From the NCBI GenBank assembly GCA_945957135.1, contig CAMFLK010000013.1, positions 1 to 32,910 of the forward strand: 32,910 nt of DNA. The letters are read 5' to 3'. The stretch comes from an uncultured Rhodospirillales bacterium (GTDB taxonomy: Bacteria; Pseudomonadota; Alphaproteobacteria; Acetobacterales; Acetobacteraceae). Below are positions 1 to 10,836 of the stretch, in pieces. The stretch's first letter is position 1, and each line of letters opens with the position of its first letter. A model generated the notes under the pieces. That model saw nothing but the letters and a program-made list of their open reading frames with translations, did not search any database and was not told where the DNA came from. A program made the translations under genes and the position numbers.

Positions 1-629
1 AATTTTTCCAGCAACACGTACCCTTCCCTCGGTCCCTCTCGGCGCCCCATGTCGGAAATGACTGCAGCAAATCGTTGTCTGGATATTTCCCGAAGCGCCT
101 CGTCGGTCGAGCCCGCGAGGGTGAACTTGAGACCAAAAGCCTCAAATGCTCGCCGCTCATGAATATTGTTGTTTGGTCGGTCATCCACCCACAGAACATG
201 ACTCCGCCAACCATCACCTTCCGTATAGCCAGAAGATGCAGCCTTCTGAACCACGTCCACAATGTCCTGTATGTCTTCCTGTGAACGAGGCTCCAGTGTC
301 TTCGTGGTCGCCACCGCAAGCGATGCTGCCGCGGAGAGTTGCATGCGTACCATGTCAACATAGTGTTGTTCGTCCTTGAAATCTGCCGGCGCGAACAGCT
401 TTCCCGTGTGATTGCTCACAAGCCAAGCGAAGACCAACAAAACAAGCACAGGAAAGATCACTAAAAAATATACGAGCGGCACCCGCTCAGCGGGGGTGAA
501 TGAGCCTGAAAACCCCGTGACGAGCGCGGCGAATCCGTAAACGAGGACGATGAACAGAGCGATGATACCGAGAGGATTGCGCGCCAGACTTGTTGCTGTT
601 TGCCCGAACCCCTGCACATCCCCATCCAT
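1..629 (-). CDS. Membrane-anchored receiver-like (REC) protein, C-terminus cut by window edge
   Basis: The frame reads without a stop from ATG at 629 to base 1, giving 209 codons, so the C-terminus lies outside the window. An AAGGAGG ribosome site sits about 9 nt before the ATG. Two hydrophobic segments (about residues 20-38 and 50-71) are followed by a linker and, from about residue 143, a response-regulator-like fold: HVLWVDDRP carries the acidic pair D149/D150, and FAAVISDMG carries D193 at the phosphoacceptor position, followed by an E-GY-LL stretch. The DDRPNNN motif belongs to a group of stand-alone REC-like proteins, not to classical DNA-binding regulators. No output domain is visible before the edge. 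It starts 35 nt after the stop of the RAMA-like gene, so the two are probably one operon. The role is unknown; membrane signalling or a defence function is inference only. The coding call is firm; the function is not. Confidence 0.85.
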   Translation of the reverse strand, partial: MDGDVQGFGQTATSLARNPLGIIALFIVLVYGFAALVTGFSGSFTPAERVPLVYFLVIFPVLVLLVFAWLVSNHTGKLFAPADFKDEQHYVDMVRMQLSAAASLAVATTKTLEPRSQEDIQDIVDVVQKAASSGYTEGDGWRSHVLWVDDRPNNNIHERRAFEAFGLKFTLAGSTDEALREISRQRFAAVISDMGRREGPREGYVLLEK

Positions 630-664
630 CGTCGCGCCCCCTCCTTCCCGGCCGAAATAAGGGC

Positions 665-1114
665 CTACTTGCGCCTACGCCGCGCCACCTCTGAGCGAAA
701 TTTCGAGATCGATCGCCATCTGTCTGCGCCTGGTAGCTGCGCTTCCCAATAGTTCCAGCCATTGAGCGATACGCCAGCCAGCGCGCTTGCCGCCGCCGAT
801 GGGCTGCTATAGCGCGCTCCGTTTACGAGCCAACTTCCGCTCTCGATCGTGCCGTTGAAGGCCTTGCCATTGTACGACATCCGCAACCGCGTTCCTGCCG
901 GCAATGTCGCTCCCTTTGCGGTCCAGCCGCTACCTGAATCGTCATTCGACGACGAGTTGCTCGCTGTCGCTAGTCGCGGTGAGTGCGATGGCAAGCCTGC
1001 CTCCGCCCGCAGGATGTCGTTATATGTCTGATCGAATGAGATGCGCTTGCCTTCGAGCCAGCGATTGACCTCCACGTCGATCTCAATTTGCCGGTACTGC
1101 ATTGCAGCCTCCAT
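665..1114 (-). CDS. SeqA-N/RHH-like plus RAMA-like domain protein
   Basis: This is a small protein of 149 residues, or 145 if it starts at the ATG at 1102, which has GGAGG 5 nt upstream; the ATG at 1114 has GAAGG 7 nt upstream. Residues 6-41 (IEIDVEVNRWLEGKR, then NDILRAEAGL) resemble the N-terminal dimerisation segment of SeqA and ribbon-helix-helix proteins: a short strand, two helices and the NDILR pattern. A Ser/Asn-rich linker (42-65) leads to a segment (66-140) with LPAGTRLRM, SPSAAASALAG, NGWNYWE and a closing W-S-LR-like stretch. That pattern matches the RAMA domain, which is named for its association with restriction enzymes and methylases and is thought to sense modified DNA. The tail is very basic (RRRRK). 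It is upstream of, and probably co-transcribed with, the membrane REC-like gene. Domain assignments are by eye. The function, perhaps a DNA-binding reader or autorepressor, is inference. Confidence 0.8.
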   Translation of the reverse strand: MEAAMQYRQIEIDVEVNRWLEGKRISFDQTYNDILRAEAGLPSHSPRLATASNSSSNDDSGSGWTAKGATLPAGTRLRMSYNGKAFNGTIESGSWLVNGARYSSPSAAASALAGVSLNGWNYWEAQLPGADRWRSISKFRSEVARRRRK

Positions 1115-1531: not shown

Positions 1532-1607
1532 TGGCGTCCCGTAGGGGATTCGAACCCCTGTTACCGCCGTGAAAGGGCGGTGTCCTAGGCCTCTAGACGA
1601 ACGGGAC
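1532..1607 (-). tRNA. tRNA-Glu(UUC)
   Basis: Read on the minus strand, the gene has the acceptor stem GTCCCGT/ACGGGAC, a D-arm with TCGTCTAGAGG, the anticodon stem CCGCC/GGCGG enclosing CTTTCAC (anticodon TTC), and the T-arm CAGGGGTTCGAATCCCCT. The discriminator base is G, and CCA is encoded at the 3' end (bases 1532-1534 of the plus strand). The cloverleaf is complete, so the gene should be functional. Its 3' end faces the low-GC region to the left. Confidence 0.97.
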
Positions 1608-1681: not shown

Positions 1682-2821
1682 TCAGGTATAGCCGGTGGAG
1701 CCGTCCGGGCGGCGGGGCAGCTTGCGTTCCCAGTGGATGTAGTCGTCGGTTTCCAGCGCCTTGGCGTCGATCTCGATGCCCCAGCCGGGGCGGTCCGGGC
1801 GCAGTTGCAGATAGCCGCCTTCGGGGAAATAGGGATCGGCGGCCCAGCTGCATTCTTCCGGCAGCTTGTATTCCAGGATCTTGAAGTTGGGCTGGGCGGC
1901 GGAGAAATGCAGGTTCACGGCGGTGGCCAGCGGGCCCATCGGGTTGTGCGGCGCCACGGTCACGTAATGCGCCTCGGCCAGGGCGGCGATGCGGCGCATT
2001 TCCGCCAGGCCGCCGACCACGCAGATATCCGGCTGGATGATGTCGGCCCCGCCGGCGGCGAGCAGGGCGAGGAATTCGAAGCGGGAATACAGGCACTCCC
2101 CGGTGGCCAGCGGCGCCTTCAGCTGGCTGCGCAGGCGGCCCCAGGCGGGGATGTGCTCGGGGCGGATCGGCTCCTCGAAGAACAGCGGGTCGTGCGGGGC
2201 GAGGGCGTTGCCGAGCTGGATGGCCTGGTAGGGCTCGAAGATCTTGGCGTGCGCGTCGAAGGCGAATTCCCAGTCCGACGGGCTGATCGCGCGCAGCTGG
2301 CCGAAATACTCGCCCGCGGCGGCGCAGAGATTGCCCCAGCGCCCGGCATGCAGGTCGCGCCGGTAGGGGCTCAGCTTGAAGGCGGTGAAGCCGTAGCGGG
2401 CGTTCAGTGCCTGGGTGCGCTCCAGGCACTCGCGCGGGTCGGGCGCGGTGTACACGCCGCAATACACGCCCACCTTGTCGCGCACGTTGCCGCCCAGCAG
2501 CATGTACACGGGCAGGCCGGCGGCCTTGCCGGAAATGTCCCACAGCGCGTGCTCGATGGCGGTGATGGCGGCCAGCCCGATGGCGCCGGGCGGGAAGCGG
2601 CTGGATTGCAGCAGCTTCTGGTAGATGAACTCCACCCGGCGCGGGTCGATGCCCTCGATCTGCGGGTAGAGGTAGTCCAGCAGCGGCACCAGCGCCCAGT
2701 CCGGGCCGTGGTTGTAGGCCTCGCCCCAGCCGCTGATGCCCTCATCCGTGTCGATGCGCACCAAGAGGCGCGGCCGGTCGCCCACACGCTGCATGAAGCT
2801 GCGCAGGCCGGTGATCTTCAT
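1682..2821 (-). CDS. Galactonate dehydratase-like enolase-superfamily enzyme
   Basis: A 379-residue mandelate racemase/muconate lactonizing family protein. The N-terminal capping domain (about 1-115) is followed by a barrel with the expected residues: K149 in FKLSP, D189 and H191 in FDAHAK, E216 in FFEEP, E242 in TGECLYS and H292 in APHNPMGP. The Asp-x-His arrangement and the late APHNPxGP histidine follow D-galactonate dehydratase (Asp183/His185/Glu209/Glu235/His285 in the family reference), so an acid-sugar dehydration giving a 2-keto-3-deoxy acid is likely. The exact substrate cannot be read from sequence. The ATG overlaps the stop of the ATPase gene by 4 nt (ATGA), making this the last gene of the transporter operon and translationally coupled to it. 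Longer frames that extend the start upstream are ruled out by that overlap and by the normal family start MKI. Confidence 0.93.
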   Translation of the reverse strand: MKITGLRSFMQRVGDRPRLLVRIDTDEGISGWGEAYNHGPDWALVPLLDYLYPQIEGIDPRRVEFIYQKLLQSSRFPPGAIGLAAITAIEHALWDISGKAAGLPVYMLLGGNVRDKVGVYCGVYTAPDPRECLERTQALNARYGFTAFKLSPYRRDLHAGRWGNLCAAAGEYFGQLRAISPSDWEFAFDAHAKIFEPYQAIQLGNALAPHDPLFFEEPIRPEHIPAWGRLRSQLKAPLATGECLYSRFEFLALLAAGGADIIQPDICVVGGLAEMRRIAALAEAHYVTVAPHNPMGPLATAVNLHFSAAQPNFKILEYKLPEECSWAADPYFPEGGYLQLRPDRPGWGIEIDAKALETDDYIHWERKLPRRPDGSTGYT

Positions 2822-4509
2822 GGGGCGGCCTCCGCGACCAGGGAGCGGTGGGCGGGGTCGGCCTCCGGCACCGCGGCCAGCAGGCGCTGGGTGTAGGGCA
2901 TTTGCGGGCGGGCGCAGATGTCGTCGGCCGCGCCGATCTCCACGATCTCGCCACGATGCATCACCGCGATGCGGTTGCAGAAATAGCGGATCACCCCGAG
3001 ATCGTGGCTGATGAAGATGAAGCTGAGGCCGAGCTTGGGCTGAAGCTCCAGCAGCAGGTCGAGGATCTGGCCGCGCAGCGTCACGTCCAGCGCCGAGGTG
3101 GCTTCGTCGGCGATGATCAGCCGCGGGTCGAGCGCCAGCGCGCGGGCGATGACGATGCGCTGGCGCTGGCCGCCGCTGAAGGCGTGGGGGTAGCGGCTGC
3201 CGCAATCGGCCGGCAGCCCGACGCGCACCAGCAGTTCGCGCACCCGCTGCGACAGGGCCTTGCCGCTGAGCAGCCCGTTCACCAGCAGCGGCTCGCCGAT
3301 GCACTGCTCCACCGTCATGCGTGGGTTGAGCGAGGCGAACGGGTCCTGGAACACCATGCGGATTTCGCGATGCACCGGCCGCAGCCCGTCGCGATCGAGC
3401 TGCACCAGGTCGCGCGTGGCGCCGTCACGCATGCGGTAGCGCACGGAGCCGCCGGTGGGTTGCAGGATGCGGATGAGGCAGGAGCCGATGGTGGTCTTGC
3501 CCGAGCCGCTCTCGCCGACGATGCCGAGATTCTCGCCCTCGTACAGGTCGAAGCTGACGCCGCGCACGGCATGGGTGGGCGGCTTGGGCGGGCGGAACAG
3601 CGAGGCCTGGGCGGGGTAGGTCATGGTCAGGTCGCGCACTTCCAGCACCGGCGCGCCGGCGGGCACGGAGGGGCGCGCCGGCGGGGCGGCCATGCCAAGC
3701 TTCTTCGCCGCGTCCAGCAGCTTCACCGTGTAGGGATGCTCGGGCCTGGCGAACAGCGTCTGCACCGGCGCGTGCTCCACCACCGCGCCATGGTACATCA
3801 CCAGCACGTCGTCGGCGATCTGCGCCACCACGCCCATGTCGTGGGTGATGAACAGCACGGCCAAGCCGGCCTCGTCCTGAAGTTTCTTGATCAGGCGCAG
3901 GATTTCCGCCTGGGTGGTGACGTCGAGCGCCGTGGTCGGCTCGTCAGCGATCAGCACCTTGGGGTGGCAGGCGAGCGCCATGGCGATCATGGCGCGCTGG
4001 CGCATGCCGCCGCTGAACTCGAAGGGGAAGCGATCGACGGCGATTTCCGGCGAGGGGATTTCCACCTGGCGCAGCAGCTCCACCGCCCGCGCCCGGGCGG
4101 CGCGACGGTCGGCCAGCCCATGCGCCACCAGCCCCTCGGCGATCTGCCAGCCGATCTTGTGGATGGGGCTGAGCGAGGTCATCGGCTCCTGGAAGATCAT
4201 GGCGATGTCGCGCCCGCGCAGGGCGCGCATCCTGGCACCGCGCGGCGGCAGCTTGGCGATGTCCACGGCCTGGGCCGACGGGTCGGGCCGGTAGAGGATT
4301 TCGCCGCCGACGATGCGGCCGGGCGTGCCGACGATCTGCAGGATGGAGCGGGCGGTGATGCTCTTGCCGCTGCCGCTCTCGCCCACGATGCACAGGGTGC
4401 GGCCGGGTGCGAGGGTGAAGCTGACGTCATCGACGGCCTTCACCGTCTCCCGCCCCACGGGGAACCAGGTGCGCAGGTTGCGCACGTCGAGGATCGGTTC
4501 AGTGGGCAT
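2818..4509 (-). CDS. Dipeptide-class ABC transporter, fused double ATPase
   Basis: 563 residues containing two complete DppD/DppF-type nucleotide-binding domains in one chain, as in GsiA and YejF. The first half has the P-loop GESGSGKS (43-50), signature FSGGMRQR (165-172), Walker B VLIADE (185-190) and a TTALD D-loop. The second half has the P-loop GESGSGKTT (about 332-340), signature FSGGQRQR and Walker B LIIADEATSALD. Both halves look competent for ATP hydrolysis. The protein would sit on the cytoplasmic face and power the two permeases encoded upstream. The start overlaps the preceding permease gene by 11 nt. The substrate class is not determined by this subunit; the flanking sugar-acid enzymes suggest a carbohydrate acid, not a peptide. 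Confidence 0.95.
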   Translation of the reverse strand: MPTEPILDVRNLRTWFPVGRETVKAVDDVSFTLAPGRTLCIVGESGSGKSITARSILQIVGTPGRIVGGEILYRPDPSAQAVDIAKLPPRGARMRALRGRDIAMIFQEPMTSLSPIHKIGWQIAEGLVAHGLADRRAARARAVELLRQVEIPSPEIAVDRFPFEFSGGMRQRAMIAMALACHPKVLIADEPTTALDVTTQAEILRLIKKLQDEAGLAVLFITHDMGVVAQIADDVLVMYHGAVVEHAPVQTLFARPEHPYTVKLLDAAKKLGMAAPPARPSVPAGAPVLEVRDLTMTYPAQASLFRPPKPPTHAVRGVSFDLYEGENLGIVGESGSGKTTIGSCLIRILQPTGGSVRYRMRDGATRDLVQLDRDGLRPVHREIRMVFQDPFASLNPRMTVEQCIGEPLLVNGLLSGKALSQRVRELLVRVGLPADCGSRYPHAFSGGQRQRIVIARALALDPRLIIADEATSALDVTLRGQILDLLLELQPKLGLSFIFISHDLGVIRYFCNRIAVMHRGEIVEIGAADDICARPQMPYTQRLLAAVPEADPAHRSLVAEAAP

Positions 4510-5611
4510 GGGGGTCGGCCGCGTCGCGCAGCCCGTCGCCGAGGAAGTTCAAAGCCAGCACGGTGATCGCCACCGCCGCGCCGGGCAGCAGCAGCCAGGG
4601 GGCGGAGGCGATGGACTGCACGTTCTGCGCCTCCTTCAGCAGCGCGCCCCAGCTGATCGCCGGCGGTTGCAGGCCGAGGCCGAGAAAGGACAGCGAGGTC
4701 TCCGCCAGGATCATCATGGGAATGGCCAGCGTGACGGAGGCGATGATGTGGCTGGTCAGCGAGGGCAGCATGTGGCGGAAGATGATGCGCTTCTGCGAGC
4801 AGCCGTCGAGCCAGGCGGAGGTGACGAAGCTGTCCGACCGCAGCTGGAGGAATCGCCCGCGCACCACCCGCGCCAGCTCGGTCCAGCCGATCAGCGAGAT
4901 GATGACGGTGATGGTGAAATAGATGGCCATCGGCGGCCAGTCCTTCGGCAGGGCGGCGGCGAGGGCGAGCCAGATGGGAATGGTGGGCAAGGAGATGATG
5001 AACTCGATCACCCGCTGCACGAACCAGTCGATCCGCCCGCCGTAATAGCCCGAGAGGCCGCCGAAGGTGATGCCGAGCATGAGGCTGACGGTGACGCCGA
5101 CGAGGCCGATGGACAGCGAGGCGCGGGCGCCGTGGATGATGCGGCTCAGCACGTCCCTGCCCTGCCGGTCGGCCCCCAGCAGGAACACCATGTCGCGCGG
5201 GTTCTCCGGGCCGAACAGGTGCAAATTGCCGGGGATGAAGGTCCACATGTCGTAGCCGTCGCCGCGCACGAACCAGTGCAGGTAGATGCGGCGGCTGGCG
5301 TCCGGCACGAAGCGCGGCTCCAGCGTCACCGGGTCGCGCGCCAGGCGGAAGGCGTTGACGTAGGGACGCAGCGCCCAGCCGCCGTCGGAATCGTCGATGA
5401 AATGGATAGCCTGCGGGGGGTGGAACACCAGCCGCGCGTTGCTGCGGTCGGGGTTGAAGGGGGCGATGAACTCCGCGAACAGGGCGATGGTGTAGAGCAG
5501 CACCATCACCACCAGCCCGAACATCGCCAGCTTGTGCCTGCGGAATCGCAGCCAGGTGAGCTTGGCCTGGGACGCGGTCTCGAGCCCGCCATGGGTCAGC
5601 GTGGCGCTCAT
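4499..5611 (-). CDS. DppC-type ABC transporter permease
   Basis: A 370-residue inner-membrane permease of the DppC/OppC family. After a cytoplasmic N-terminus (LRFRRHKLAMFGLVV) and the first membrane helix comes a periplasmic insertion of roughly 100 residues. The hallmark LGADRQGRDVLSRIIHGAR and five further hydrophobic helices follow. The EAA-like coupling loop is near TSAWLDGCSQKRIIFRHMLP, and the C-terminus has SFLGLGLQPP and NFLGDGLRD. The long loop makes it larger than the usual 300-residue DppC and resembles the YejE-like and carbohydrate branches of this family. The ATG at 5611 overlaps the upstream permease stop by 4 nt (ATGA). Longer frames starting inside the neighbour are not supported. 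Confidence 0.94.
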   Translation of the reverse strand: MSATLTHGGLETASQAKLTWLRFRRHKLAMFGLVVMVLLYTIALFAEFIAPFNPDRSNARLVFHPPQAIHFIDDSDGGWALRPYVNAFRLARDPVTLEPRFVPDASRRIYLHWFVRGDGYDMWTFIPGNLHLFGPENPRDMVFLLGADRQGRDVLSRIIHGARASLSIGLVGVTVSLMLGITFGGLSGYYGGRIDWFVQRVIEFIISLPTIPIWLALAAALPKDWPPMAIYFTITVIISLIGWTELARVVRGRFLQLRSDSFVTSAWLDGCSQKRIIFRHMLPSLTSHIIASVTLAIPMMILAETSLSFLGLGLQPPAISWGALLKEAQNVQSIASAPWLLLPGAAVAITVLALNFLGDGLRDAADPHAH

Positions 5612-6591
5612 TGGAAGCGGATCCGCGGATCGAGCAGGGCGAGGAGAATGTCGGAGACCAGCGTACCGATCACCGTCAGCGTGCACATCAGCAACAGGAA
5701 GGCTCCGGCGAGATACTGGTCCTGTCCGAGCAGCGCCTGGAGCAGCACGGGGCCGGCGGTGGGCAGGTTCAGCACGATGGAAATGATGACGGAGCCGGAC
5801 ACCAGGTTCGGCAGCACCCAGCCGATGGTGCTGACGAACGGGTTGAGCGCGATGCGGATGGGGTAGCGCACCAGCAGGGTGAACTCGCTCAGCCCCTTGG
5901 CCCGGGCGGTATCGACATAGGGCTGGTGCAGCTGGTCCAGCAGGTTGGCGCGCATGATGCGGATCAGGCTCGCGGCCCCCCCGGTGCCGAGGATCACCAT
6001 GGGAATCCACAGATGCTTGGCCAGATCGACCACCCGCGCCCAGCTCCACGGCGCATCGACGAAGGGCGGCGAGAACAGGCCGCCGACATCGGCGTGGAAG
6101 ACGGAGACGCCGACATACATCAGCACCAGCCCCATCAGGAACCCCGGCACGGCGAGGCCGACGAAGCCGATGAAGGTGAAGATGTAGTCGCCGATCGAGT
6201 AGCGCCGCACGGCGGAATAGACGCCGATGGGCAGCGCCACCGCCCAGGTGAACAGCAGGGTGGAGGCGGAGAGCACGAAGGTGAGCCCCATGCGCTCGCC
6301 GATCAGGTTCACCACCGGCTGCTGCCACTGGAAGGAGTAGCCGAAATCGCCGACCACCACGCCGCTGATCCAGTCCCAGTACTGAATCCAGATCGGCTGA
6401 TCGAGACCGTAGCGCTGGCGCATGCTGGCCATCATCGCGTCGTCCACGGTCTCGCCGGCCGCGGCCAGGGCGGCCGCGTAGTTCTGCACGAAGTCACCGG
6501 GCGGCAGCTTGATCAATGCGAACACGGTGATCGAGACGAGGAAGATGAACGGTATCATCCCCGCCAGCCGCCGCACGATGAACCTCCCCAT
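5608..6591 (-). CDS. DppB-type ABC transporter permease
   Basis: A 327-residue inner-membrane permease with the family N-terminus (MGRFIVRRLAGMIPFIFLVS, then LPPGDF), about six membrane helices and the coupling motif YVDTARAKGLSEFTLLVRYP. The C-terminal region includes GSVIISIVLNLPTAGPVLLQ, typical of DppB/OppB/YejB. It starts 4 nt after the stop of the binding-protein gene and ends in an ATGA overlap with the DppC-type gene, so it should be made in step with its partner. It forms the heterodimeric channel with that partner. Confidence 0.94.
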   Translation of the reverse strand: MGRFIVRRLAGMIPFIFLVSITVFALIKLPPGDFVQNYAAALAAAGETVDDAMMASMRQRYGLDQPIWIQYWDWISGVVVGDFGYSFQWQQPVVNLIGERMGLTFVLSASTLLFTWAVALPIGVYSAVRRYSIGDYIFTFIGFVGLAVPGFLMGLVLMYVGVSVFHADVGGLFSPPFVDAPWSWARVVDLAKHLWIPMVILGTGGAASLIRIMRANLLDQLHQPYVDTARAKGLSEFTLLVRYPIRIALNPFVSTIGWVLPNLVSGSVIISIVLNLPTAGPVLLQALLGQDQYLAGAFLLLMCTLTVIGTLVSDILLALLDPRIRFQ

Positions 6592-6595
6592 GCGG

Positions 6596-8494
6596 CTAGG
6601 GCGCGAAGTAGTATTGCTGGAGCAGCGTCGGCGCCGGGGTCGGGTAGTCCCAGGCCAGCGGGATCTTGTCCGGCACGTTCATCAGCTTCTTGCTGCGGAT
6701 GCCGAAGGTGGTCACGGCCTGCACCGTCCCCATCACCTCGAACCCATCGGCCGCGAGGTCGAGGATCTGGCGGAACTCGCGATCGGCGTCCGCCTGGGTG
6801 TGGGCCTGCTTCACCTGGTCCCACAGCGCCATGCGCTTCTTCATGCTGTCGCTCGGCTCCTCGCCCGACTTGCCGCCGGTGGAGTACCATTTCACCCAGG
6901 GGATGCTCTGCCGGCTGTCCAGCGTGTGGGTGGCGATCAGCGCGCGCGGATCGAGCATCGGCTGCAGGCCGCCAGGCACGGCGTAGGTGCCGATGTCGTA
7001 ATCGGCGTTCTGCGCGCGCTCGTAGTACAGCGAGCGTTCCATGGTGTTGATGCCGACATCGATGCCGACCTGGGCCCATTGCTTCTTGATCAGCTCGGCC
7101 GTGTCGATGGCGGCGGTGTCCACCACCATCGCGTCGATCTGCAGGAACAGCTTCTCGCCGGAGGGAGTCAGGCGGAAGCCCTTGCCGTCGCGCTTGTCCA
7201 GGCCCAGCCCGTCGAGAATCTTGTTGGCCTGGGCCACGTCGTGCTGGGTGTACTGCGTGCCGAGCTTCTCGTTGTAGAAGCGATCCGCCGGCAGCGGGCC
7301 GACCTGCCAGGGCTTGCCCTGCCCGAGGAAGACGATTTCGTTGATCTCGTCACGATCGGTCGCGAGCGACAACGCGCGGCGAAGGTCGCGGTTGCGCAGC
7401 CATTCGCGGGTTTTCGGGTTCTTGGCGGACTGGTTGAACCACAGCGCCATGGCCGAGCTGTCGGCCGGCGGCATTTCCTGCAGCACGTAGCCGCCCTCGG
7501 CGGCATGCTGGGCCAGCACCGGCTTGTTGTTGATGGTGTTGATGTGCCGCACCATCAGGTCGAGCTGCCCGCCCATCGAGGCGAGCACGATCGCCTGGAT
7601 GTCGCTGATCACCTTGAGGTTCAGCGTGTCGATATAGGGAAGCTGGTTGCCGGCGGTGTCCACCTGCCAGAAATACGGGTTGCGCCGCAGCACCACCTGG
7701 CTGGCGCCGCCGGTATAGGGGGTCTGGATCACCCACGGGTCCATCACCGGCTTGTCCGGATTGCCCCAGCGTGCGGGGATTTCGATGTCGCCGCATTTCT
7801 GGCGGAACAGCGTGGCCCAGCTGGTCTGCTTGCTCTCGGCGAGCAGCTTCGCCACGTCCGGGTTGTAGTTGGGCATGAACTGCTTGCAGTAGTGCTTGGC
7901 ATACAGCGTGGGGTGCTGCCCCAGCGGCGTGGCCAGCAGCTCCGGCAGGCGCAGGTTGGGGGCGGCGGAAATCAGCTTCACCGTGCTGTCGTCGATCTTC
8001 TCGGCGCGCAGCACCTTGCCGCCGACGACGTATTGCGAAGGCGGCGAATCGAAGAATTCCTTGTTGGGGAACAGCTCGTTCACCACGAAGGTGATGTCGT
8101 CGGCGGTGAACGGCGCGCCGTCCGACCATTTGGCGCCCTTGCGCAGCTTGAAGGTGTATTCGGTGGCGTCGTCATTCACAGTCCAGCTTTCGGCCAGGTT
8201 GGGAATGGCCTTCGAGAAGGTCATGTCCCACCGCGTCAGCCCCATGTTGCCGACCAGGCGGAGGATGCCGTTATGGTCGGAATCCCCGCGCACCGCGGAG
8301 CGCAGCGTGCCGCCGTAGCGGCCCACGCTCTGCACCGGCTTCACCACTTCCGGCTGGTCCGGCAGGCGCTGCGCCAGCGGCGGCAGCTTGCCCTGGCCGA
8401 CCAGCGCCGAAAGCTGCGGCGCCTCCTTGTAGTCGGCCGCATAGGCCGCGCCGCCCGCCACCGCGAAGGCCGCGGCCACCACCCATTTGAACAT
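6596..8494 (-). CDS. Family 5 extracellular solute-binding protein
   Basis: A 632-residue periplasmic binding protein of the DppA/OppA class. A signal peptide ([19 protein letters not shown], probably cut after AYA near residue 19) precedes the mature protein. Family hallmarks are [32 protein letters not shown], the FFDSP region and [13 protein letters not shown]. At over 600 residues it belongs to the large branch that includes YejA and the alpha-galactoside binder AgpA of Sinorhizobium, so a carbohydrate ligand has precedent. It would deliver substrate to the permeases encoded directly downstream. The ATG at 8494 follows a GGGGAGG site by 6 nt. A weak promoter-like sequence lies in the 104 nt gap before it, so it may be expressed more strongly than the rest of the operon. 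Confidence 0.94.
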
Positions 8495-8561
8495 TCCGCC
8501 CTCCCCGTTTTCGCCTTGCCGACGGCCTTCCGCGACCGCTTATGGTAACGCAATCATCGAC

Positions 8562-8592
8562 GCTATAGCGCAGATTTCGCGCAGCCGGTCAA
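8562..8592 (-). promoter_or_regulatory. Weak promoter-like site and palindrome before the binding-protein gene
   Basis: On the minus strand TTGACC (8592-8587) is followed after 19 nt by TATAGC (8567-8562), a -35/-10 pair with long spacing. The -10 lies inside the perfect palindrome CGCTATAGCG (8561-8570), which could be an operator. It lies between the UxuA-like gene and the binding-protein gene and could provide an internal start for the transporter. The evidence is sequence resemblance only. Confidence 0.3.
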
Positions 8593-8598
8593 GCAGTA

Positions 8599-9600
8599 TC
8601 ACCCGGCCGGTTTCTCCGCCACCGGCTTGATGCGCAGCGCGTTCAGCGCGCCGATGATGTAGCCGTAGCAGAAGGCGAAGGCGGTGCCGCTGGGGTCGCG
8701 CCCGTCGATCGTCGGCACATGGTCGGGCATGATCATGTAGGGGTAGCCGACCTCGTGGTACACCTCCAGCGAGCGGGCCATGTCCATCACCCCGTCATCG
8801 GGGAAGGATTCCATGAAGTCCAGCTTGCGGCCGATGATGTTGCGGAAATGCACGTTGAACAGCTTCCCGCGCGTGCCGAACCAGCGGATGATGTCGAAGA
8901 TCTCGCCGGCCGGGTCGTCCAGCATCTCGCCCACCGTGCCCTGGCAGAAATTCAGCCCGTGATAGGGGCTCTCGTGCATCTGCACGAAGCGCTTCAGCCC
9001 GTCCACCGTGCCCAGCACCCGCGTCACCCCGCGATAGCCGGGCGGCGTGTAGGGGTCGTGCGGGTGGCAGGCCAGCCGCACCTTGTTCGCGGTGGCCACC
9101 GGTACCACGCGGGCGAGGAAATAGTCGATCCGCTCCCAGTTCTCCGCCTCGCTCACCACGCCGGCGATGGTGGGCGGCGCGTCGGGGTCGGCCTTGGCCC
9201 AGCGGAAGGTGGAGTTGCGCGAGCCGCCGCGGCCCAGCTCGGTCTCCGTGCGGGGGATGCCGATGATGTTCATGTTGTATTTCGCGGCGGGAATCCCCGC
9301 CTTGGCCAGCCGCTCGATCAGCGCGCAGATACTGTCGATCTCGCGGTCCCGCTCCGGGCTCTTTCCCATCAGGATGTGCGGGCTGTGCTGCTCCTCGATC
9401 GGGCGGGAGGACATGGGGATCTGCACCATGTCGAGCGACAGGCCGAAGGATTCGATGTGCTCGCGGTGGCGGATCAGCTGCTCCAGCGTCCAGTGATGCG
9501 GGTTGCCCGGCGGATCGACGCAGACATGGGTCACGCCCAGCTGCGCCCACATGCGGTAGTCGTCGTCGTCGCGTGGGTTGATCTGCGTGCCGACGTGCAT
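8599..9600 (-). CDS. Mannonate dehydratase (UxuA)-like protein
   Basis: A 333-residue TIM-barrel protein of the mannonate dehydratase family, which converts D-mannonate to 2-keto-3-deoxygluconate. The signature NVHFRNI, then FMESFPDDG and MPDHVP, is clear. Likely metal ligands are H179 (in ACHPHDP), C219 (NFCQGT), H251 (VHFRN) and D293 (MPDH), matching the His/Cys/His/Asp set of the family. It is about 60 residues shorter than E. coli UxuA and lacks the usual WRWYGP start, so its substrate may differ. The ATG at 9600 has GGAGG 6 nt upstream. As first gene of the operon that also encodes the importer and a galactonate-dehydratase-like enzyme, it likely acts on the imported sugar acid. Confidence 0.88.
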   Translation of the reverse strand: MHVGTQINPRDDDDYRMWAQLGVTHVCVDPPGNPHHWTLEQLIRHREHIESFGLSLDMVQIPMSSRPIEEQHSPHILMGKSPERDREIDSICALIERLAKAGIPAAKYNMNIIGIPRTETELGRGGSRNSTFRWAKADPDAPPTIAGVVSEAENWERIDYFLARVVPVATANKVRLACHPHDPYTPPGYRGVTRVLGTVDGLKRFVQMHESPYHGLNFCQGTVGEMLDDPAGEIFDIIRWFGTRGKLFNVHFRNIIGRKLDFMESFPDDGVMDMARSLEVYHEVGYPYMIMPDHVPTIDGRDPSGTAFAFCYGYIIGALNALRIKPVAEKPAG

Positions 9601-9637
9601 CGCGTCCTCCTGTCTTGACCGTTCGCCCCTGGCGTCC

Positions 9638-9664
9638 TCCGATGATGGGAGCGATCACATCGGA
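9638..9664. promoter_or_regulatory. Inverted repeat in the divergent sugar-acid promoter region
   Basis: In the 87 nt between two divergent sugar-acid genes, TCCGAT (9638-9643) and ATCGGA (9659-9664) form an inverted repeat with a 15 nt spacer. The outer flanks partly continue the symmetry (GCGTCC on the left, GGACGC on the right). This is a candidate operator for coordinated control; no regulator gene is present in the window. Confidence 0.35.
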
Positions 9665-9687
9665 CGCGCAAGCGGGGGAAGTCGGCC

Positions 9688-10836
9688 ATGAAGATCACCG
9701 AAATCAAGGTGCGGGTGTTCACCCATACCAGCCGCCAGATGAAGGACAGCGACGGCCATTCCCATCCCGGCCCGCCGCGCCGGGTGCGCCAGGCGCTGCT
9801 GAGCGTGATCTGCGACGACGGCAGCGCGGGCCACTGCTTCGCGCCGACCGAGGCGGTGCGCCCCTCGCTGATCAAGGACTTCGTCGAGGTGGTCCTGCTC
9901 GGCCAGCACCCGTTCGACCGCGAGAAGCTGTGGCAGGGCCTCGCCCATTGGCAGCGCGGCAGCGGTGCCCAGCTCACGGACCGCACGCTGGCCATCGTCG
10001 ATCTCGCGCTGTGGGACCTCGCCGGCCGCAAGCTCGGCGTGCCCGTTTACAAGCTCATCGGCGCCTATCGCGACAAGGTGCCGGCCTATGGCAGCACGAT
10101 GTGCGGCGACGAGATCGCCGGCGGCCTCGCCACCCCGGAGGATTACGGCCGCTTCGCCGAATGGCTGATCAAGCGCGGCTACAAGGCGATCAAGCTGCAC
10201 ACCTGGATGAAGCCCGTCTCCTGGGCGCCGGACCCGCGCATGGACGTGCGCGCCTGTGCCGCGGTGCGCGAGGCGGTGGGGCCGGACGTGCCGCTGATGC
10301 TCGACGCCTATCATGGCTACAGCCGCAGCGAGGCGCTGTGGCTCGGCCGCGAGCTGCAGAAGCTGAACTATGCCTGGTACGAGGAGCCGATGAACGAAGC
10401 CTCGATGAGCTCCTACGCCTGGCTCGCCGCCAATCTCGACATTCCCGTCATCGGTCCGGAAACCGCGGACGGCAAGTTCCACACCCGCGCGGAATGGATC
10501 AAGGCCGGCGCCTGCGACATCAGCCGGGTGGGCGTGCACGACGTGGGCGGCATCACGCCCAGCCTGAAGACCATCCACCTCGCGGAATCCTTCGGCATGG
10601 ACTGCGAGGTTCACGGCCATGGCGCCGCCAACCTCACGCTCTGCGCGGTGCAGCGCAACGGCCATTGGTACGAGCGCGGCCTGCTGCACCCGCATCTGGA
10701 CTACGACATCGTGCCCGAATACCTGAACAGCCCGCCGGATGCCATGGACGCGGAGGGCTTCGTCCATCTCTCCGACAAGCCGGGCATGGGCGAGGACATC
10801 AATTTCGACTATATCGACGCCAATCTGGTCACCTGA
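9688..10836 (+). CDS. Mandelate racemase/enolase-superfamily sugar-acid dehydratase-like
   Basis: 382 residues with the two-domain enolase-superfamily layout. Probable metal ligands are D206 (LMLDAYHGY), E232 (WYEEP) and E258 (GPET). The general-base position on the second barrel strand reads K169-L-H171 (IKLHTW) instead of the common K-x-K. A histidine pair is at H309/H311 (VHGHGAANL). This places it in the mandelate racemase subgroup, most of whose members dehydrate acid sugars, but not in a class I can name. It is divergent from the operon that encodes a different enolase-superfamily enzyme, and the two share an 87 nt control region, so they probably act on related substrates. A GGGGAAG site precedes the ATG. 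Confidence 0.9.
   Translation: MKITEIKVRVFTHTSRQMKDSDGHSHPGPPRRVRQALLSVICDDGSAGHCFAPTEAVRPSLIKDFVEVVLLGQHPFDREKLWQGLAHWQRGSGAQLTDRTLAIVDLALWDLAGRKLGVPVYKLIGAYRDKVPAYGSTMCGDEIAGGLATPEDYGRFAEWLIKRGYKAIKLHTWMKPVSWAPDPRMDVRACAAVREAVGPDVPLMLDAYHGYSRSEALWLGRELQKLNYAWYEEPMNEASMSSYAWLAANLDIPVIGPETADGKFHTRAEWIKAGACDISRVGVHDVGGITPSLKTIHLAESFGMDCEVHGHGAANLTLCAVQRNGHWYERGLLHPHLDYDIVPEYLNSPPDAMDAEGFVHLSDKPGMGEDINFDYIDANLVT

Follow-up and report, generated by a model that had tools for sequence, protein, structure and literature searches.

The start of the window, by which we mean the whole stretch of 32,910 nucleotides analysed here (contig C13, which belongs to a 4.4-Mb draft genome of an uncultured Rhodospirillales bacterium), is probably the tRNA-proximal edge of an acquired island with two independent cargo genes. 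The first of these, gene 1, encodes a SeqA-like protein in which a SeqA-N-like segment is joined to a RAMA domain (SeqA_N-RAMA), and the second, gene 2, a membrane pseudo-receiver with two membrane helices (2TM-receiver). As a pair the two genes are ordinary, and it is as two separate protein families that they are interesting. The coordinates of all features are collected in Table 1.

Table 1. Features at the island edge, with the evidence on which each call is based.
Feature	Position	Strand	Details and basis
2TM-receiver gene (gene 2)	1..629	(-)	ATG at 629; 3' part cut off by the contig end (base 1)
Receiver-like domain, first half	3..197	(-)	residues 145-209, VLWVDDRPNNN ... SDMGR
Membrane helix 2	408..494	(-)	residues 46-74; hydropathy and helix in homologue model
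Membrane helix 1	510..578	(-)	residues 18-40; hydropathy and helix in homologue model
Gap with gene 2 Shine-Dalgarno (GGAGG)	630..664	(-)	35 nt; sequence
SeqA_N-RAMA gene (gene 1)	665..1102	(-)	145 aa from ATG at 1102; ORF call and RAMA Pfam match
RAMA domain	671..925	(-)	residues 60-144; Pfam PF18755 and model
SeqA-N-like (ribbon-helix-helix type) segment	971..1102	(-)	residues 1-44; SeqA_N family, PDB profile and model
tRNA-Glu(ttc)	1532..1607	(-)	island side below 1532, at the tRNA 3' end; G+C step

The G+C content of positions 1-1530 is 57.5%, as against 68-69% across the rest of the window, and this low-G+C stretch abuts the 3' end of the tRNA-Glu gene. The 3' end of a tRNA gene is the usual place for an integrated element, and the drop in G+C together with the abutting tRNA thus fits the island edge proposed in the first-pass annotation. 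The contig stops at base 1, which leaves the remainder of the island, and an integrase if there is one, out of view. Between gene 1 and the tRNA (1115-1531) there is no convincing gene, and this interval is probably a remnant of the island or of an element. On the other side of the tRNA, positions 1682-10836 look by eye like an ordinary catabolic cluster, with two genes of the enolase superfamily (mandelate racemase type), a dipeptide-type ABC transporter and a TIM-barrel gene. A candidate second att copy was rejected: the match, on contig C348, is a tRNA-Glu(ctc) gene in its own right and no att duplicate. A scan of the locus with the sigma-70 consensus, which says little for this organism, found no promoter.

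Open reading frames and sequence agree with the earlier observation that gene 2 lies on the same strand, 35 nt downstream of gene 1, and in this island a single transcript may cover both. This arrangement, the Shine-Dalgarno sequence on each gene and the island location all favour a model in which a sensor of DNA state works jointly with a membrane signalling protein, the two making up a surveillance or defence pair. We nevertheless regard this model as very improbable, given that the genes are adjacent in no other surveyed locus of either family. First, the RAMA-family profile found nothing across 46 2TM/receiver neighbourhoods, with flanks of up to 8 kb. Second, the 2TM-receiver profile, applied near 15 RAMA loci, matched only in the window. 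Third, in 20 viral loci neither profile found the other gene of the pair. Fourth, no fusion of gene 1 and gene 2 domains occurs among 72 receiver proteins and about 25 RAMA proteins, and among 299 genomes of the order only that of the window has a strong match to both genes. Overall, within flanks of mostly 3 to 8 kb and on contigs some of which are short, no RAMA relative was found near the gene 2 homologues (about 50 loci) and no receiver near about 25 SeqA_N-RAMA genes. Adjacency, which had been set in advance as the test of a conserved surveillance or defence pair, was therefore found only in the window, and that claim of the first-pass annotation falls. The two cargo genes thus stand together here by local coincidence, or form a recent operon at most. 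The immune sense that had been given to it is lost for the pair and survives in part for each gene separately.

Gene 1 was listed as an open reading frame of 149 aa (665-1114, from an ATG at 1114); from the sequence, the ATG at 1102 is judged the better start, with the arrangement GGAGG-CTGCA-ATG placing GGAGG five bases upstream. The RAMA family (PF18755) matches the window protein with an E-value of 5.5e-8 and 33.2 bits, about 2 bits under the gathering score of 35.2 bits, and is matched by 12/13 proteins when the window protein is aligned with its relatives from viral contigs. SeqA_N does not match the window protein alone: its signal appears with relatives only, in 9/13 proteins of the same alignment (best E-value 1.4e-6) and in 6/15 of the plasmid and genome set, and a search of the host genome with this family gave no signal at the window locus. 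A profile of the family built without the window protein recognises the first 45 residues of that protein (E 7e-5, with Z set to 100000). When the family profile was compared with all PDB sequences, the SeqA entries 1XRX and 3FMT came out as the top two (with E-values of 0.013 and 0.13), both matches being confined to residues 1-44.

Fold comparison led to the same assignments. A template-free AlphaFold2 model of the gene 1 protein (pLDDT 82) matched the RAMA domain of mouse MPND (7YDT, Z 9.0 over 75 residues, rmsd 2.2; 7YDW, Z 8.9) and that of CcrM (6PBD, Z 8.0), and its residues 3-37 matched the SeqA N-terminus (1XRX) over 35/35 residues, with Z 3.9 and rmsd 1.9; folds ranked below these three had Z of 2.9 or less, the value of 2.9 being that of the next unrelated fold for the RAMA region. 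The SeqA match covers few residues at a low Z, and so rests on the agreement of sequence and structure rather than on Z alone. Profile search and fold comparison thus agree with the earlier proposal of a SeqA-N/ribbon-helix-helix-like segment joined to RAMA, and with its description as a SeqA-style architecture carrying another reader module. The C-terminal DNA-binding domain of SeqA had no Pfam match in this protein, where residues 60-144 are RAMA. A nuclease domain, the criterion for Type IV restriction, had no match in its 145 aa either, and PADLOC found in gene 1 no core gene of a system, with matches only to the C-terminal tail of the candidates PDC-S14 and PDC-S57.

A few N-termini of the gene 1 family are also matched by VAPB_antitox and DUF7557, and the RAMA domain contacts the DNA backbone in the CcrM and MPND structures (PMC9963953). 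Both facts are compatible with an autoregulatory repressor of the antitoxin or Arc type, in which the RAMA-like part would add non-specific DNA affinity only. We consider this unlikely, as SeqA_N matches better and more often (the 9/13 given above) and no toxin partner recurs among the surveyed loci.

Relatives of gene 1, with similarity over the full length, were found on plasmids, in other genomes, on viral contigs and in one Rhizobium phage. The family recurs on phages, plasmids and islands; its N-terminus is strongly conserved (IEIDFDVHKxIExER...DxLRRLLxL). No neighbour defined as a sequence family recurs around gene 1 in the surveyed loci. The survey that denied the pair its conservation did, on the other hand, place RAMA relatives several times beside adenine methyltransferase or restriction genes: a D12 methylase lies upstream (L170), an N6_N4 methylase 48 nt downstream (L171 and L172), a BsuBI/PstI nuclease and an Eco57I methylase adjoin the gene (L163), HsdM/HsdS are divergent from it on a Rhizobium plasmid (L046), and a DNA adenine methylase adjoins it in the Rhizobium phage RHph_X2_26. 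Methylase neighbours were counted at 6/26 RAMA loci and, in a control count made partly by eye, at 2/45 2TM loci (p 0.045, or 0.09 once two near-identical loci are merged). This excess is weak and only suggestive.

A further explanation is that gene 1 is a SeqA-like phage or plasmid regulator which binds hemimethylated sites and times the replication or packaging of the element; the sites would be made by the host CcrM (GANTC) or by an element-encoded methylase. The union of SeqA_N with RAMA speaks for it, as do the presence in the host of a CcrM-like adenine methyltransferase that ends in a RAMA domain (G000 contig C2, 23186-23485; L186) and the position of the gene in phages, between primase and methylase or terminase genes. 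It is weakened by the dispute over the methylation dependence of RAMA (PMC9963953, PMC11037411) and by the sporadic distribution of gene 1, which argues against a host cell-cycle factor. On the one side, a 2024 paper considered bacterial RAMA fusions as candidate sensors of N6-methyladenine (6mA; PMC11037411); on the other, one study found that the RAMA of MPND binds DNA without a preference for 6mA (PMC9963953), so that the word reader may be wrong for gene 1. Overall, we hold this explanation to be quite possible, albeit short of an even chance. The broader reading that we prefer is that gene 1 encodes a small oligomerising DNA-binding protein, with an N-terminal multimerisation segment of the ribbon-helix-helix type, a flexible linker and a C-terminal RAMA. 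Such a protein most likely binds duplex DNA, in a manner that either depends on adenine methylation or acts on it, and would thereby regulate or shield the DNA of its mobile element. A search of the available literature found no description of SeqA_N joined to RAMA, and public annotation labels relatives of gene 1 DUF2924 or DUF4357, without mention of SeqA_N.

With regard to gene 2, hydropathy, profile search and fold comparison bear out the earlier description of two membrane segments and a DDRP-type receiver. Only half of the receiver is present in the window, which begins at the contig end, and the missing 3' end of the gene was not found on another contig. Full-length homologues are of about 256 aa, in which Response_reg is matched with E-values down to 7.6e-13 (L054), and a model of the full-length Lysobacter homologue (L083) matched known receivers with Z 18.4 over 118 residues, so that the modelled receiver fold of the family is clearly CheY-like. 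The absence of an output domain, also claimed before, is unreadable in the window for the same half receiver, yet nearly all full-length homologues do end after the receiver; one relative, L063, continues into an HNH nuclease.

The closest relatives of gene 2 (62-67%) are in a Lysobacter MAG, Deltaproteobacteria, Planctomycetes and Acidobacteria, as compared with 43-46% for Neoroseomonas of the host's own family. That closer relatives are found in other phyla and classes than in its own family points to horizontal transfer. No recurrent partner of gene 2 was found in the surveyed loci, PADLOC gave no match for the 2TM-receiver, and many such genes have no defence-like neighbour. Apparent neighbour clusters around the 2TM gene were rejected as shadow frames of that same gene.

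Among 26 homologues of gene 2, both Asp residues of the acidic pocket are invariant and 25 retain the phospho-acceptor Asp; Ala mostly occupies the Thr/Ser site, and none of the homologues has Lys at the Lys site. The same pattern holds for 72 receiver segments of all architectures, where the acidic pair is kept, the Asp is present in 70/72, Thr/Ser is replaced by Ala in 61/72 and there is no conserved Lys; these segments were chosen by their first eight residues, whose conservation is accordingly no evidence. By its sequences, the gene 2 family is one of pseudo-receivers under the published definition, namely, a receiver fold in which one or more of the five catalytic residues (DD, D, T/S and K) are missing (Bourret et al. 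2025, PMC12632262). For the window copy this status rests on its relatives, as it ends before the Thr/Ser and Lys sites. The fold, the acidic pocket and the conserved Asp would also suit an ordinary orphan response regulator of a two-component system, anchored in the membrane. To this we give a low probability, as the conserved Thr and Lys are lost, no kinase recurs nearby in the surveyed loci, and the same module is fused to effectors of the immune type.

These fusions emerged from a scan of 84,980 species genomes, which returned 80 loci with gene 2-type matches in many phyla. The same receiver is found C-terminal to TIR domains (about 14 by eye, two of them confirmed by Pfam), to SIR2 (L117), to a caspase domain (L116) and to DUF4062-like domains (six by eye, with one weak Pfam match; L109, L112, L113, L119, L120 and L121, mostly from Firmicutes MAGs), as well as behind single-helix N-termini. 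One of the DUF4062-like proteins, from L109, matches the candidate defence protein PDC-S60. By eye, the receiver occurs twice in a protein of 1802 aa (L133:6102-11510), which also has GAF-like stretches and is caspase-like at its C-terminus.

In L063:564-2978, a TIR_2/ThsB-like gene and an Mrr nuclease come after the fusion of 2TM-receiver to HNH nuclease, which from the sequence makes this short contig a candidate compact defence locus. A DUF4062 gene comes after the 2TM-receiver gene in L083, and on a viral contig (L174:7246-8624) a TIR gene of the CAP12/Pycsar type overlaps the start of the 2TM-receiver gene. The E. coli copy (WP_000433086.1) is flanked by yfgI and guaA and has an AAA_15 ATPase and the remnant of a transposase next to it, and this block recurs at the end of predicted prophages (L175-L178). 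In one P2-like prophage (L180), the position between integrase and ogr is taken by a 2TM protein whose C-terminus differs; the published defence hotspot of P2 lies between gpA and gpQ (PMC9122126), and L180 is hence not counted as hotspot evidence. Two further proteins carry the two-helix N-terminus of the 2TM-receivers on a nuclease-like C-terminus (L058:5107-6027, with a NERD match, and L059:4531-5400, with an AAA/OLD-like TOPRIM ATPase gene nearby) and may represent a family of membrane-anchored nucleases.

We favour the view that gene 2 encodes a membrane-anchored pseudo-receiver, which is most likely the regulatory part of an immune-type effector, because other proteins carry the same module behind TIR, SIR2, caspase-like and DUF4062 domains. 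Its state would be changed by a signal other than classical phosphotransfer from a histidine kinase, and its output would be either the membrane helices themselves or a partner enzyme encoded adjacently. It is tempting to go further, and to see in the LWVDDRPxNN pseudo-receiver the common trigger of a large effector family, and in SeqA_N-RAMA proteins element-borne analogues of SeqA that read adenine methylation. In such a scheme 2TM, TIR, SIR2, caspase-like, DUF4062 and HNH parts would be interchangeable immune outputs of an as yet undescribed family, released when a shared signal outside the phosphorelay, for instance a nucleotide, is sensed. We put this forward as a speculation that is somewhat doubtful as a whole.

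The two families are of interest beyond this island. SeqA_N-RAMA proteins are a compact test case for the reading of adenine methylation by bacterial RAMA domains, a property that is disputed for the eukaryotic MPND. If the effectors with pseudo-receivers are anti-phage, a sensor module common to many effector types would have been identified; and since an intact homologue of 256 aa exists in E. coli, the activation of kinase-free receivers would then be directly testable.

TIR domains such as those of Thoeris ThsB and of the CBASS and Pycsar effectors are fused to or adjoin gene 2-type receivers, whereas gene 2 of the window lacks such a domain and showed no cyclase in its vicinity. The gene 2 family shares with other pseudo-receivers (PMC12632262) the receiver fold with catalytic residues missing, and differs from them as a coherent subfamily with the signature LWVDDRPxNN, SDMGR, FIYAGSN and GxTN, carried on immune-type effectors. 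For conflict systems, Aravind and colleagues describe receivers that work without a kinase, and put forward switching in response to nucleotides (PMC8195603). Like the gene 2 module, these receivers, including cREC, are found among effectors; in that work they are predicted to be nucleotide-responsive switches (PMC8195603, PMC7824862). The gene 2 family fits the idea of a nucleotide-responsive, kinase-free receiver as set out there (PMC8195603). The match to cREC (PF20274) is weak, with an E-value of 0.0046 in the E. coli homologue, and the consulted sections of both papers hold no description of the 2TM form or of the TIR, SIR2 and caspase fusions of this receiver.

Gene 1, for its part, resembles SeqA of E. 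coli (1XRX, 3FMT) in having an N-terminal multimerisation segment of about 35 residues, a linker and a C-terminal domain that contacts DNA, and differs from it in that this last domain is a RAMA instead of the SeqA C-terminal fold, and in being sporadic and borne by mobile elements. Proteins of the DUF2924 and DUF4357 families have a RAMA-related stretch in common with its C-terminal half, which both match below threshold in Pfam. The gene 1 RAMA shares its fold with those of CcrM (6PBD) and MPND (7YDT, 7YDW) across about 75 residues (Z 8.0-9.0); in CcrM and MPND RAMA is joined to a methyltransferase and to a deubiquitinase, respectively, whereas in gene 1 it is joined to a SeqA-N-like segment.
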